Shown in pieces: positions 28,695 to 39,997 of a DNA stretch of 64,000 nt. This stretch comes from Streptococcus tangpeifui (GTDB lineage Bacteria > Bacillota > Bacilli > Lactobacillales > Streptococcaceae), in NCBI RefSeq assembly GCF_011038795.1, contig NZ_JAAKDU010000005.1, forward strand, positions 1-64,000, in the 5' to 3' direction. The position numbers were made by a program, and so were the translations under genes. Within the stretch, counting starts at the first letter, position 1. Each line of letters opens with the position of its first letter. Under the pieces are notes generated by a model. It was given only the letters and a program-made list of their open reading frames with translations. It was not told where the DNA came from and did not search any database.

Positions 28695-28960
28695 ATTAAG
28701 GGAGGTGGCTGGGCAAAAACTCGTCCAGTATCCCGTTTTGGGATAAAGTCTTGACGCAGTGGTTGGCCACTATCCTAACTCACTGTGCGGAGGTGGGTTA
28801 AAAAGGTCTGGGAGACCTTTTTAATCGGGAAATGAAGCTTGCAAAGCAAGTGTCAAAAACGGTTTGGGGAGAGACCGTTTCAGGTCACCACCTTAAAACC
28901 AGGCCATGGTGAGGACCAAAATTTTCAATTTTTGGGTTGATCCCACGCCCTTCCCTTTTT
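28695..28960 (+). repeat. Intergenic mosaic repeat, plus-oriented copy
   Basis: Holds GACGCAGTGGTTGG and CTGTGCGGAGGTGGG, then a stretch of about 80 bp (AAAAAGGTCTGGGAGACC, GCAAAGCAAGTGTCAAAAAC) whose reverse complement recurs at 51160-51250 with few changes. GGTCTGGGAGACC forms a hairpin. It fills the gap between the LiaF-like gene and the gltX promoter. Confidence 0.75.
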
Positions 28961-29021: not shown

Positions 29022-30479
29022 ATGTCTAATGAAATTCGCGTGCGTTACGCACCAAGTCCAACGGGACTGCTACATATCGGAAATGCACGGACGGCGCTCT
29101 TTAATTATCTCTATGCTCGTCACTATGGCGGTACTTTTGTCATTCGGATTGAAGATACTGACCGCAAGCGCCATGTTGAAGATGGTGAACGCTCGCAATT
29201 GGAAAACCTGCGTTGGCTAGGGATTGACTGGGATGAAAGTCCTGAAACTCATGAACGTTACCGTCAGTCAGAACGTTTGGAGCTCTACCAAAGCTATATT
29301 GATCAACTTTTGGCGGAAGGTAAGGCCTATAAGTCTTACGTAACAGAAGAAGAATTAGCAGCTGAACGGGAACGCCAAGAAGCTGCTGGAGAAACCCCTC
29401 GTTACGTCAATGAATACCTAGGTATGGACGAGGAGCAAAAGGCTGCTTATATTGCTGAGCGTGAGGCTGCCGGTATCGTCCCAACGGTCCGTTTGGCTGT
29501 TAATGAAGCTGGTATTTACAAATGGACTGATATGGTCAAGGGTGATATCGAGTTTGAAGGCAGCAATATCGGCGGTGACTGGGTTATTCAAAAACGCGAT
29601 GGCTATCCAACCTATAACTTCGCTGTCGTTATTGATGACCATGATATGAGGATTTCCCATGTTATTCGCGGCGATGATCATATCGCCAACACTCCTAAAC
29701 AGCTCATGGTCTATGAAGCCCTTGGTTGGGAGCCTCCACAATTTGGTCACATGACCTTAATTATTAACTCTGAAACAGGTAAAAAGCTGTCTAAACGAGA
29801 TACCAATACCCTGCAATTTATCGAGGACTACCGCAAGAAGGGCTACCTCCCGGAAGCTGTCTTCAACTTTATTGCCCTCTTAGGTTGGAATCCTGGTGGA
29901 GAAGAAGAAATCTTCTCCCGTGAGGAATTGATTAAACTCTTTGATGAAAGTCGTCTCAGCAAGTCACCAGCAGCTTTTGATCAAAAGAAAATGGACTGGG
30001 TCAGCAACGACTATATCAAGAAAGCTGATTTTGAGTCTGTCTTCGCCCTCTGTAAACCTTTCTTGGAAGAAGCGGGACGCCTGACCGACAAGGCTGAAAA
30101 GTTGGTAGAGCTTTACAAGCCTCAGCTCAAGTCAGCTGATGAAATTGTCCCTCTGACTGACCTCTTCTTTGAAGACTTTCCAGCATTGACTCAGGAAGAA
30201 AAGGATTTTATGGCGGGTGAAAGCGTTCCAACTGTCCTTACGGCCTTCAAGGCTAAGCTGGAAGCCATGTCTGATGAGGACTTCCAAGCAGAAAATATCT
30301 TCCCGCAAATCAAGGCTGTTCAAAAGGAAACGGGCATCAAAGGTAAAAATCTCTTCATGCCAATTCGGATTGCTGTTTCTGGTGAAATGCACGGTCCAGA
30401 ATTACCAGATACTATTTATCTATTGGGGAAGGAAAAATCTATCCAACATATTGAGAATATGCTGAAGAACTTGAAATAA
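29022..30479 (+). CDS. gltX: Glutamyl-tRNA synthetase
   Basis: Class I aminoacyl-tRNA synthetase that charges tRNA-Glu, and tRNA-Gln in bacteria using the transamidation route. The 485 residues contain the HIGH-type motif [15 protein letters not shown] at the N-terminus and the KMSKS-type GKKLSKRD near 255, followed by the helical anticodon-binding region. The start lies behind AGGAG. A hairpin with T-run follows the stop. Confidence 0.97.
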
Positions 30480-30746: not shown

Positions 30747-30799
30747 TTGTAAAATTTACAATCCTTTTATTTTCTGTTACAGGAAGGTTATGATATACT
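30747..30799 (+). promoter_or_regulatory. Promoter of RNA 1 with upstream palindrome
   Basis: TATACT (30794-30799) is the -10. The perfect palindrome TTGTAAA-A-TTTACAA (30747-30761), centred about 52 bp before the predicted start near 30806, is a candidate operator. No good -35 is present, consistent with an activated promoter. The cognate regulator is unknown. Confidence 0.45.
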
Positions 30800-30805
30800 G
30801 AATAG

Positions 30806-30975
30806 GAATTAGTGATAAGTTTGCTTGCTGTTAAAGTTGGCCATGAGGAGAAGATCTGCCTTGAGAATGGGGGAGAGATATTCTCAAGGCTCTGGAGCTG
30901 CTTCTAATAACTGAGCCAACCATAAGAACACGCTGTTCACTGAATGTGATCCCCCCGAGTATTCGGAGGGTTTTT
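30806..30975 (+). ncRNA. Structured RNA 1 with purine-rich apical loop
   Basis: About 170 nt folding into a rod. TTAGTGA (809-815 of 30 kb) pairs with TCACTGA, GTTGGC pairs with GCCAAC, and AGAAG pairs with CTTCT. The tip is a perfect 11-bp stem, GCCTTGAGAAT (30858-30868) with its complement (30880-30890). The apical loop is GGGGGAGAGAT (30869-30879). It ends at CCCCCCGA-GTAT-TCGGAGGG plus TTTTT (30951-30975). No open frame is plausible. The loop is complementary to both loops of RNA 2 at 32134-32300. A 6S-like role is an alternative, but no large central bubble is seen. Confidence 0.6.
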
Positions 30976-30996
30976 ATTTTAAAATGAAGATAATTT

Positions 30997-31025
30997 TTGT
31001 TATTTTAAGTGTGAAATAATATAAT
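30997..31025 (+). promoter_or_regulatory. Promoter of the FasA/ComE-like regulator
   Basis: TTGTTA (30997-31002), 17 bp, TATAAT (31020-31025). It lies after the terminator of RNA 1, so the regulator has its own transcript. Confidence 0.75.
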
Positions 31026-31058
31026 TAATCAAAGAGTGGTTAGAAATGGTGGGAGTTT

Positions 31059-31808
31059 ATGAATATATTTATTTTGGAAGATAATTTAATCCAACAAACG
31101 CGGATTAAAACCTTAGTAACGGAGATATTGCGGGAAGAAGGAATTTCAGCTCGTCAGTTTGAAGTTTTTTCCAAGGCACAAAATCTATTGGATGCTATTG
31201 CTGAAAAGGGTAATCACCAGCTTTTCCTTTTGGATATTGAAATTAAGGGAGAAGAAAAAAAGGGGTTAGAGGCAGCGGCGGATATCCGTCGGATTGATCC
31301 TGCGGCTGTTATTGTTTTTGTGACCACTCACTCAGAATTCGCTCCGATTAGTTTTAAGTATAAAGTTTCTGCCTTAGATTTTATTGATAAAACAGCTCCG
31401 GATGAGCAGTTCAAGACTGATCTGCGTGAAGTTATTGCTTATACGGCTAACAATATGCACCGCTCGGAGGAAGTGGATGAGGTTTTTACCTTTGAATCAG
31501 CTCAGGCGCGTGTTCAGCTGCCCTTCAAGGATATCTATTACTTTGCGACCTCGCCAACGCCCCATAAGGTCATGTTAATTACAAAAAATGAGCGTTTAGA
31601 GTTTTACGGTAGTCTCTCAGAGATTGCAGAAGTCAATTCACGACTCTTTTCCTGCCACCGATCTTTCCTAATTAATTTAGATAATATTAGTCGAGTGGAT
31701 AAGGCTGAGCTCTTAGTCTTCTTTGAGAATGGAGATGCCTGTCCAGTTTCCCGCTTGAAGATGAAGGCTCTTATGCGGGAGTGGGGAGCCAGACAGGAGA
31801 CTGTTTAA
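31059..31808 (+). CDS. FasA/ComE-type LytTR response regulator (orphan)
   Basis: A 249-residue two-component regulator. The receiver domain (1 to about 125) has acidic E7/D8, the phospho-acceptor D59 in LFLLDIEIKG, and the strands VIVFVTTHSEF and VSALDFIDK. The C-terminal LytTR DNA-binding domain (about 145-245) has YYFATSPTPHKV and LFSCHRSFLINLDNI. The sequence resembles streptococcal ComE and FasA. The place between gltX and the rnpA-yidC-jag cluster is where S. pyogenes keeps fasBCA-fasX, so FasA is favoured. No FasB/FasC or ComD kinase is nearby. The SD TGGGAG contains GGGAG, partly complementary to the loops of RNA 2. Confidence 0.85.
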   Translation: MNIFILEDNLIQQTRIKTLVTEILREEGISARQFEVFSKAQNLLDAIAEKGNHQLFLLDIEIKGEEKKGLEAAADIRRIDPAAVIVFVTTHSEFAPISFKYKVSALDFIDKTAPDEQFKTDLREVIAYTANNMHRSEEVDEVFTFESAQARVQLPFKDIYYFATSPTPHKVMLITKNERLEFYGSLSEIAEVNSRLFSCHRSFLINLDNISRVDKAELLVFFENGDACPVSRLKMKALMREWGARQETV

Positions 31809-31825
31809 GGCAAAAAATAAAGTTT

Positions 31826-31915
31826 GAGAGTAGGACAAAAATCAACCACTGCGTCAATTTGGTAAATCTAGGATAATGCTAACGAGTTTGGACTTTTGTT
31901 CCAGACTCTTTTTTA
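31826..31915 (+). repeat. Short copy of the intergenic mosaic repeat acting as terminator
   Basis: GAGAGTAGGACAAAAATC, then CAACCACTGCGTCAA, GGTAAATCTAGGATAATGC, TAACGAGTTTGGACTTTTG and a final CAGACTCTTTTTT. The outer ends can pair (GAGTTTGGAC...GTTCCAGACTC), giving a terminator for the regulator gene. The same blocks occur at 42285-42350 and 42500-42575. Confidence 0.7.
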
Positions 31916-32040
31916 TTTTGCTGGAGAAGATTGAAAAACTAGGTGGTTCAATTGTCCATTTACATAGAAAAAATCTGATTTTAGTCCATCAATCTAGGAT
32001 ATTATTCTATGATCAGAAAGAGCAGTTGGGGATAAAAAAT

Positions 32041-32094
32041 GCATTTCAAGAGAAATTTTGACATTTCAAGATAAAAAAACGACAATTCAAGATA
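32041..32094 (+). promoter_or_regulatory. Three direct repeats upstream of RNA 2 (LytTR-type binding site)
   Basis: GCATTTCAAGAGA (32041-32053), ACATTTCAAGATA (32061-32073) and ACAATTCAAGATA (32082-32094). The start-to-start distances are 20 and 21 bp, two helix turns. The pneumococcal ComE box is ACAnTTCAG in direct repeat with about 21-bp periodicity, so this looks like a site for the regulator encoded just upstream. The last repeat ends 28 bp before the -10 TATACT (32123-32128). Confidence 0.65.
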
Positions 32095-32133
32095 TTGTGG
32101 TTTAAAAATCTTTGATTTGAGATATACTAATCA

Positions 32134-32300
32134 GCGTAGGGATGAAGTTTTCTATCAGTTTCTCTCTCCCAATAATTATTCTGATAGAAGACAGACGCAA
32201 ACTTATCCCGAACTTCTTATTTATTCGAAACCCATTTCTCATCTCTCTCCCAATATACTGTGAAATGGAAAGGGACCCGCGACGGCGGGTTCTTTTTTTT
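32134..32300 (+). ncRNA. Structured RNA 2, FasX-like, with twin C-rich loops
   Basis: About 167 nt from the -10 TATACT (32123-32128) to a strong terminator (GGACCCGC-GACG-GCGGGTTC then eight T, 32273-32300). Hairpin 1 has a 12-bp stem (32147-32158 with 32181-32192) and a 22-nt loop. Hairpin 2 has a 7-bp stem CCATTTC/GAAATGG (32232-32238 with 32262-32268) and a 23-nt loop. Both loops carry the identical 14-mer TCTCTCTCCCAATA (32161-32174 and 32242-32255). Exposed UCCC-containing loops are typical of RNAs that bind Shine-Dalgarno regions. The position downstream of a FasA-like regulator matches FasX of S. pyogenes. Confidence 0.75.
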
Positions 32301-33309: not shown

Positions 33310-33393
33310 CATGAATAAAAAACAAAAAATTATAAAAAAATCGAAAAAAAAATACAAAAAGTACTTGACTCATGAATAAAAATACCATATAAT
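33310..33393 (+). promoter_or_regulatory. argG promoter with two ArgR boxes
   Basis: TTGACT (33365-33370), 17 bp, TATAAT (33388-33393). CATGAATAAAAA occurs at 33310 and again at 33371, filling the spacer between -35 and -10. This matches the Bacillus ARG box CATGAATAAAAATKCAAK and predicts direct repression by arginine-bound ArgR. Confidence 0.75.
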
Positions 33394-33454
33394 GACTTTC
33401 GTAAGGTTGAGATATACAAAAAACAGCCTAAAAAAGAAGAAAAGAGAAATAATT

Positions 33455-34645
33455 ATGTCAAAAGAAAAAGTCATTCTAGCTTACTCAGGGGGACTTGATA
33501 CCTCCGTCGCGATTACTTGGTTGAAAAAAGATTACGATGTTGTTGCTGTCTGCATGGATGTCGGTGAAGGTAAGGACTTGGAATTCATCCATGATAAGGC
33601 GCTGAGCGTTGGAGCTGTTGAGTCTTACGTCCTTGATGTTAAGGATGAATTTGCTGAGGAATATGTTTTGCCAGCTTTGCAGGCTCATGCTTACTATGAA
33701 CAAAAGTATCCTTTAGTATCAGCCCTCAGCCGTCCAGTAATTTCTAAGAAATTGGTTGAGATTGCTCATAAGACTGGAGCAACGACTATCGCTCATGGCT
33801 GTACTGGTAAGGGGAATGACCAAGTTCGGTTTGAAGTGGCTATTGCGGCTCTTGATCCAGAGTTGAAGGTTATTGCGCCAGTTCGGGAATGGAAATGGTC
33901 CAGAGAAGAAGAAATTGAATACGCTAAGAAGAATGGCGTGCCAGTTCCTGCTGATCTTGACAATCCTTATTCAGTTGACCAAAACCTTTGGGGGCGTGCC
34001 AATGAATGCGGTGTCCTTGAAAATCCATGGAATCAGGCCCCTGAAGAAGCCTTTGGTATTACCAATTCTGTTGAAGAGGCTCCTGATACGCCTGAATTTG
34101 TTGATATTGAATTTAAAGCTGGTAAACCGGTGGCTATCGATGGTCAAGAAATGAAATTGGCTGATTTAATTCAAAAATTAAATGATTTGGCTGGGAAGCA
34201 CGGTGTCGGTCGGATTGACCATGTAGAAAACAGATTGGTCGGTATCAAGTCTCGGGAAATCTATGAATGCCCTGGTGCTATTACACTGTTGACCGCACAT
34301 AAGGAAATTGAAGACCTGACCTTGGTTCGGGAAGTGTCCCACTTTAAACCAATTCTTGAAAATGAATTATCTAATTTGATTTATAATGCCCTTTGGTTTA
34401 GCCCAGCGACGGAAAGTATTTTGGCCTATATCAAAGAAACTCAAAAAGTGGTTAATGGAACTGCAAAAGTGAAATTGTACAAGGGAACTGCTAAGGTTGT
34501 GGCACGGAAGTCGCCGAATTCTCTTTATGATGAAAATTTGGCAACCTACACTACAGCAGATAGTTTTGATCAAGATGCGGCTGTAGGATTCATTAAACTT
34601 TGGGGGCTGCCAACTCAAGTCAACTCACAAGTTAATAACAAATAA
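33455..34645 (+). CDS. argG: Argininosuccinate synthase
   Basis: Joins citrulline and aspartate with ATP to form argininosuccinate. The 396 residues open with [20 protein letters not shown], the PP-loop ATP site, and contain [14 protein letters not shown] and the conserved [15 protein letters not shown] segment. The ATG at 33455 matches the usual N-terminus; an in-frame ATG at 33392 overlaps the -10 and is rejected. Paired with argH downstream, though separated by 690 bp of regulatory and repeat DNA. Confidence 0.96.
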
Positions 34646-39630: not shown

Positions 39631-39661
39631 AAGGGGTAATTTAGAGTGTTTGGAGACTGCC

Positions 39662-39997
39662 TTGAAGAAGACCTATCGTGTTAAAAAAAACTTAGATTTT
39701 CAAGCTATTTTTAGGCGAGGCAAGAGTGTCGCCAATAGGAAATTTGTCGTTTATAGTTTAGAAAAGTCACAGAAGCATTTTAGAGTTGGCCTGTCGGTCA
39801 GTAAAAAGCTTGGCAATGCCGTTATCCGCAATCGGATCAAACGGAAGATGAGACATGTTTTGATGGAATTGGCTCCGCATTTAAGCAACGATGACTTTGT
39901 TATTATTGCTCGAAAAGGCGTTGAAGATATGGACTATCAGGCAGTGAGACAGAATTTAAAACATGTTCTCAGTCTAGCTGGTGTCTATCAAGATTGA
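39662..39997 (+). CDS. rnpA: Ribonuclease P protein component
   Basis: Small basic cofactor of the RNase P ribozyme that matures tRNA 5' ends. The 111 residues include [20 protein letters not shown] at the start and the RNR motif [19 protein letters not shown] at 39662 with GGAG 6 nt upstream gives the usual N-terminus; a TTG at 39650 would precede the SD. First gene of rnpA-yidC-jag. In many Firmicutes rpmH lies just upstream, but here rpmH is 6 kb downstream. Confidence 0.95.

Follow-up and report, generated by a model that had tools for sequence, protein, structure and literature searches.

A probably rearranged Fas locus in the sobrinus group of Streptococcus, where a neighbouring RNA is predicted to antagonise the FasX-like small RNA

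We describe what is most likely a rearranged Fas system in the window (the whole stretch of 64,000 nucleotides analysed), whose host is a Streptococcus of the sobrinus group. Two predicted small RNAs flank the gene of a FasA-type regulator, and we lean moderately towards the reading that the upstream one, RNA1, is a local antagonist of the downstream, FasX-like one, RNA2. Directly visible in the sequences are the anatomy of the locus, the complementarity of the two RNAs, which three genomes retain, the boxes in front of RNA2, the local absence of kinase genes and the presence of a kinase pair elsewhere.

Organization of the locus

The comparison covers the window genome (G000), G087 and G235 (taken as S. 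sobrinus DSM 20742), with one genome per sobrinus-group species; all three are kin and not independent tests. Among the named genomes of the collection, S. sobrinus DSM 20742 is the closest, its FasA homologue being 92% identical to that of the window. Three landmark genes frame the locus:

29022..30479, + strand: gltX, left flank of the fas locus (open reading frame)
33392..34645, + strand: argG, right neighbour (open reading frame)
39650..39997, + strand: rnpA, right end of the gltX-rnpA interval (open reading frame)

We take these to be gltX, argG and rnpA from sequence familiarity. Between gltX (29022-30479) and argG (from 33392) lie RNA1, a gene for a LytTR response regulator of 249 aa and RNA2. 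The order RNA1 then fasA on one strand is kept in all three genomes; in S. sobrinus two extra genes separate gltX from RNA1. An earlier, sequence-only reading of the window had proposed a Fas-like unit. This is supported: the unit lies between gltX and rnpA, and a FasX-like RNA is found there behind FasA/ComE-type boxes. To that reading we add a second complementary site, the boxes before RNA2, the kinase pair elsewhere and a further RNA, RNA3.

RNA2, a candidate FasX relative

32134..32300, + strand: RNA2, predicted FasX-like small RNA (fold; 92-93% identity in G087 and G235; alignment)
32123..32128, + strand: -10 element TATACT of RNA2 (listed as a plus-strand site by the promoter scan)
32161..32174, + strand: CU loop 1 of RNA2 (fold, repeat)
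32242..32255, + strand: CU loop 2 of RNA2 (fold, repeat)
32270..32300, + strand: RNA2 terminator hairpin with T-run (fold; unlisted by the terminator scan)

RNA2 looks FasX-like. It has a FasA homologue before it, lies in the gltX-rnpA interval, follows FasA/ComE-type boxes and bears CU loops. The latter are two copies of an exact 14-nt repeat, TCTCTCTCCCAATA, at 32161-32174 and 32242-32255, both predicted as open loops; this double occurrence had been read correctly from the sequence, letters and coordinates included. CU-rich single-stranded regions as in FasX are thus present in RNA2, in the form of two predicted open loops TCTCTCTCCC. The predicted fold of the whole RNA has an energy of -47.1 kcal/mol (z -3.70), equalled by 1 of 200 shuffles. 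Across the three genomes, two pairs of hairpin 1 are changed on both sides and its CU loop is constant.

The Rfam model of FasX (RF02384) does not match RNA2, neither at the gathering threshold nor at E up to 1. The same model misses loci L050 and L052 and matches L055 and L057. A CU run of at least 8 follows fasA in 23 of the 26 other fasA genomes examined for it. In S. pyogenes, FasX uses UC-rich sequence to mask ribosome-binding sites (PMC4691137; PMC12675982 section 1). It is reported to pair with ska via UCAAUCCCC and with cpa via UUGUUUUCUCUCUCUC (PMC4691137). Among the ribosome-binding sites it covers are those on adhesin mRNAs; under FasX several adhesins fall and streptokinase rises (PMC12675982 section 1).

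RNA1, a predicted small RNA in front of fasA

30791..30799, + strand: extended -10 element (TGATATACT) of the presumed RNA1 promoter (by eye; kept in G087 and G235)
30806..30978, + strand: RNA1, predicted small RNA and presumed RNA2 antagonist (fold and shuffles; genus search; alignment)
30814..30824, + strand: RNA1 5' site GATAAGTTTGC, complementary to RNA2 32197-32207 (11 Watson-Crick bases in all three genomes)
30858..30890, + strand: RNA1 apical hairpin, with pairing loop GGGAGAGA at 30871-30878 (inverted repeat, fold, interaction computation)
30950..30978, + strand: RNA1 terminator hairpin with T-rich tail (by eye; the hairpin folds in all three genomes)
30997..31025, + strand: separate promoter-like site before fasA (TTGTTA, 17 nt, TATAAT; scan, 10/12 matches)

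The most prominent element of RNA1 is an apical loop GGGGGAGAGAT on a perfect 11-bp stem, for which the sequence-only reading had given the right letters and coordinates. The stem is a perfect 11-nt inverted repeat (30858-30868/30880-30890) with arms 11 nt apart. The minimum free energy of RNA1 is -55.0 kcal/mol (z -2.55), and 2 of 200 shuffles folded as well. Its -10 element was seen by eye only, the mechanical plus-strand promoter scan yielding no promoter-like site for RNA1. Likewise, the mechanical terminator scan listed the end of neither RNA1 nor RNA2, and the hairpin and T-run of both were recognized by eye.

When 284 genomes of the genus were searched by blastn, RNA1 and RNA2 were each found in the window genome, G087 and G235. 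For RNA1 this amounts to 2 of the 283 other genomes, aside from one coding match; weak matches elsewhere (G264 for RNA1, G027 for RNA2) were dropped, as they lie inside protein-coding ORFs. In four loci (L055, L057, L058 and L118) the stretch from gltX to fasB was inspected for an RNA1 counterpart, and none was seen. The known occurrence of RNA1 in just three related genomes counts against its reading as an antagonist.

RNA1 is more variable than RNA2, with a mean column identity over the three genomes of 86% vs 96%. Its loop core GGGGAGAGA is unchanged in all three, and the surrounding stems are altered. The minimum folds have a common overall shape in which the apical loop is open, and all three RNAs keep the terminator hairpin despite sequence change. 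Other results point the opposite way: the ensemble of the G235 RNA1 is mixed (frequency of the minimum fold 0.0003, apical stem missing from the centroid), the hairpin region folded alone does no better than shuffles in G235 and G087, and RNAalifold, run on an automatic alignment of the three genomes, proposes a different pairing for the loop Gs.

A short GTG frame in RNA1, noticed by eye, was rejected as a peptide gene, being broken by an indel in the relatives. Origin of RNA1 by duplication of RNA2 is unsupported: the similarity at their 5' ends was matched by 147 of 2000 shuffles.

RNA1 may also be viewed as an attenuated leader of fasA, whose transcript would mostly stop near 30978 and sometimes enter fasA; binding of RNA2 to the leader loop would then tune read-through, giving feedback of the small RNA on its own activator. 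The position of RNA1 suits such a leader: it immediately precedes fasA on the same strand, its end is about 80 nt before the ATG, and the order is conserved in all three genomes. Judged by eye, the loop also has a G-run able to pair with a C-run in the terminator. We nevertheless consider it quite improbable. A promoter-like site (10 of 12 positions) separates the terminator from fasA in a stretch that is largely conserved (with TTGTAA in G235), and a leader has no need of the two sites complementary to RNA2 described below.

Complementarity of RNA1 and RNA2

The RNA1 loop sequence GGGAGAGA (30871-30878) pairs over 8 Watson-Crick bases with TCTCTCCC, which occurs at 32163-32170 and 32244-32251, so that either loop of RNA2 can serve as partner. 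This match had been claimed before, and it was found again exactly. The addition of a neighbouring complementary RNA to a Fas-like unit, also proposed earlier, gains from the relatives, as the loop stays complementary to RNA2 in both; in G087 and G235 the match even extends to 11 bases with CU loop 2 and 10 with loop 1. Opening the loop sites costs 0.0-0.7 kcal/mol. The best accessible Watson-Crick interaction reaches -13.2 kcal/mol in the window genome, -17.9 in G087 and -17.4 in G235; these net energies take no account of loop geometry. When RNA1 was dinucleotide-shuffled 1000 times for each genome, 4, 0 and 0 of the shuffles, respectively, gave an interaction as good as the best one observed. 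Complementarity of the loop to the predicted seed regions of RNA2 exceeds chance, as a sponge requires.

A second site lies between the two CU loops:

32197..32207, + strand: RNA2 site GCAAACTTATC for the RNA1 5' end (exact 11-mer)

After opening, this exact 11-mer nets -3.7, -1.4 and -1.9 kcal/mol (window genome, G087, G235), and it overlaps in part the predicted base stems of both RNAs. Because of this location and marginal energy, it would at best prolong a predicted loop-loop contact. A complementary run of at least 11 arose in 20, 18 and 22 of 2000 shuffles in the three genomes, and such a run together with a disjoint run of at least 8 in 8, 6 and 8. A 7-nt pairing of ATAAGAA with TTCTTAT, present in all three genomes, was dropped at net energies of -0.5, 0.6 and 0.7 kcal/mol.

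Could the match be a product of low complexity, RNA1 being an unrelated RNA with a purine-rich loop and no interaction taking place? GA and CU runs are indeed common, GGGAGAGA occurring 57 times in the window genome and its reversed control 38 times, and the shuffle counts for runs of at least 11 show that chance produces such runs now and then. Against this stand the rarity of shuffles that reach the accessible interaction, the preservation of the loop while the stems change, and the longer match in both relatives. We therefore regard an absence of interaction as unlikely. The CU loops of RNA2 could themselves be kept by mRNA targets alone, and this counts against the antagonist reading.

Comparison of the two loops for covariation, as the sequence-only reading had suggested, was uninformative because the loop cores are invariant: across the three genomes they neither vary independently, which would have spoken against an interaction, nor co-vary, which would have spoken for one.

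FasA/ComE-type boxes and RNA3

32041..32092, + strand: three FasA/ComE-type boxes, 20 and 21 nt apart, before RNA2 (repeat and box searches)

Each of the three sobrinus-group genomes has a box pair before RNA2. Among the 27 other genomes with a FasA homologue, 20 have box pairs with a spacing of 21-22 nt directly after fasA; of the rest, one has its pair about 470 nt further on and six lack a pair by that pattern, some of these six having looser matches near fasA. In S. pyogenes, too, a ComE-type box precedes the FasX promoter (PMC12675982 section 2.7). Allowing 2 mismatches, a box match occurs in 106 of 284 genomes, including genomes and places without FasA, where the boxes are presumably ComE sites. 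Since this type of box is unspecific, we infer rather than observe that RNA2 is under FasA control.

The box search of the three genomes detected no FasA-type box at RNA1, where a TTAC repeat with 21-nt spacing was seen by eye only. RNA1 and RNA2 are therefore probably controlled differently. This asymmetry invites a reversal of roles, with RNA1 as the effector and the box-induced RNA2 as its sponge: boxes stand at RNA2 only, and base pairing is symmetrical and silent on which partner is the effector. Such a reversal is very unlikely in our opinion. It is RNA2 that has the place and the CU loops of FasX, the accessible loop of RNA1 is purine-rich, unlike those of small RNAs covering ribosome-binding sites, and RNA1 is the more variable of the two.

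Besides RNA2, one further box site is kept in all three genomes (G000:C16:57736 and counterparts). It precedes an intergenic predicted RNA of 184-189 nt, RNA3 (L311, L312, L313), whose end resembles a terminator and whose open, pyrimidine-rich loop of about 38 nt is conserved. RNA1 and RNA3 are complementary over at most 7 nt. Two box matches confined to single genomes, G087:C2:1245790 and G000:C8:27701, were dropped, the latter lying inside an ORF of 833 aa. FasX-like second copies behind such boxes are found in G020 (L345), taken as S. loxodontisalivarius, and in G221 (L346), taken as S. saliviloxodontae, and G066 has a tandem copy (L350). More than one box-preceded small RNA per genome is hence not unique to the sobrinus group, and RNA1 is found there only.

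The FasA homologue and a kinase pair elsewhere in the genome

31059..31808, + strand: fasA-like LytTR response regulator gene, 249 aa (Pfam Response_reg and LytTR)

The regulator is of FasA type, with the receiver aspartate column aligned and 61-66% identity to FasA of several pyogenic relatives, its best matches outside the group. FasA homologues at E 1e-85 or better were found in 30 of 284 genus genomes, 27 of them outside the sobrinus group. In all of these 27 a kinase-like ORF, 100 codons or longer, has its end next to the start of fasA; in none of the three sobrinus-group genomes is there such an ORF. The end of this ORF resembles FasC in the 16 genomes examined for it and in the 27th genome. 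FasB and FasC genes are thus absent directly upstream of fasA throughout the sobrinus group genomes compared, and RNA1 occupies their place. As separate observations, fasA is split into two frames in the record named S. uberis CAIM 1894 (L116; also G015), and S. ictaluri (L049) has a short fasA ORF and insertion-element-like ORFs among its kinase ORFs.

The regulator had been called an orphan. This is correct locally and does not hold for the genome, as a tandem kinase pair is present elsewhere in all three genomes. A FasC query returned, in each genome, a kinase beside a ComE homologue and, separately, this pair (G000:C15:73983-76636, L310; counterparts L314 and L315). No response regulator gene was found among the ORFs adjoining the pair in the three genomes, and a FasA query gave three matches in the whole window genome. 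At the column of FasC H246, aligned for two of the three sobrinus-group genomes, the first kinase has histidine (2/2) and the second lysine or arginine (2/2). In the comparison set histidine occupies this column in FasC (4/4) and not in FasB (0/3), and ComD has histidine as well. H246 is required in S. pyogenes FasC, and other histidines are discussed for FasB (PMC12675982 section 2.5). The first kinase scores at best 145 bits against a Fas-locus kinase and 71 against ComD; the second, 218 and 144. With identities to the compared kinases of 25-37% and weak tree support, the second kinase groups with FasB-side kinases (support 80/80 and 85/92), ComD being unresolved in the same large fork. The simplest reading of these comparisons is that the detached kinases represent a relocated fasC-fasB pair.

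Search for targets, and a dispersed repeat

A purine run that RNA2 could cover, GGGAGAGA, is situated shortly before an ATG in 13, 11 and 9 cases (G000, G087, G235), its reversed pattern in 1, 2 and 2. One match per genome is simply the minus-strand reading of RNA2; of those left, several are inside genes and others resemble ordinary ribosome-binding sites. Outside RNA2, the longer TTGGGAGAGA occurs 4, 7 and 4 times in the same genomes. By our judgement one in G087 and one in G235 are at a real gene start, and none in G000; these two precede similar-looking starts of secreted proteins. In addition, GGGGAGAGAGAG precedes the ATG of a gene with a YSIRK-like signal (G000:C15:153060). These pattern searches before ATG in three genomes established no mRNA target of RNA2. 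Elsewhere in the genus, GGAGAGA immediately precedes what is presumed to be the start of fasB in S. thoraltensis (L058 1348) and also stands before fasA of S. loxodontisalivarius (L052 2810), each a possible feedback site for the CU loops of FasX.

The window also contains, at 28857-28952, a copy of a dispersed repeat, structured and about 110 nt long, whose ends pair and which includes hairpins. The window genome has at least 40 matches (40 of 73 candidates scored), several of them partial; G087 has one partial match and G235 none. Its near absence from the relatives points to recent expansion in the window genome. None of the seven loci tested gave an Rfam match. The loop of its hairpin is often GGGGAG and varies among 29 aligned copies. 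We discarded the repeat as a source of the RNA1 loop or of extra RNA2 targets because the loop varies and RNA1 exists where the repeat is absent.

Discussion

If RNA1 is an antagonist of RNA2, the system might work as follows. Phosphorylated by the detached FasC/FasB-like kinases, the FasA homologue would occupy the boxes with their 21-nt spacing and so activate both RNA2 and the distant RNA3. By analogy with FasX of S. pyogenes, the CU loops of RNA2 would cover purine-rich ribosome-binding sites. RNA1, presumably made from its own box-free promoter, is predicted to kiss a CU loop of RNA2, and its 5' end might prolong the contact into the RNA2 base stem. RNA2 would then become active only once it is more abundant than RNA1.

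A further-reaching and more doubtful version can be put forward tentatively. In the sobrinus group, Fas may have been rebuilt as a thresholded switch, where an antagonist RNA that replaces the departed kinases kisses both loops of RNA2, and RNA3, driven by the same regulator, is free of a sponge. One signal would in that case give one thresholded output, RNA2, and one graded output, RNA3.

The locus shares with FasBCA/FasX of S. pyogenes a FasA homologue followed by a CU-loop small RNA behind a ComE-type box in the gltX-rnpA interval; two kinases, one of them with the FasC histidine, may be a further common feature. It differs in that the kinase genes are detached from fasA, a complementary RNA precedes fasA, RNA2 is unmatched by RF02384, and a second box-preceded small RNA exists elsewhere in the window genome.

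RNAs that antagonise small RNAs are a known kind, exemplified by RosA/RoxS (PMC8216469) and CJnc180/190 (PMC8687705). As with RosA and RoxS of Bacillus subtilis, one small RNA is (here by prediction) paired with another in a Gram-positive; RosA is presented as the first confirmed RNA sponge in such a bacterium (PMC8216469). CcpA represses RosA, and the small RNAs that RosA binds number at least two (PMC8216469), whereas here both RNAs flank the gene of the presumed activator. In Campylobacter jejuni, CJnc180 and CJnc190 are cis-encoded antisense partners (PMC8687705), unlike RNA1 and RNA2, which are encoded apart from each other on one strand and are complementary in short stretches. LhrC of Listeria monocytogenes resembles RNA2 in its redundant CU-rich loop motifs, there used for target pairing; its regulators and targets are others, and PMC4691137, as far as its passages on LhrC go, mentions no complementary neighbour.

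Searches of the open-licence literature (titles and abstract openings) for a FasX sponge, a streptococcal sponge RNA or an S. sobrinus small RNA brought up no such partner. Measured against that literature, RNA1 would, if the antagonist reading is true, be the first FasX-type sponge described, and the present account the first of Fas in the sobrinus group. A built-in antagonist of this kind would constitute a natural experiment in how the output of a small RNA gains a threshold.
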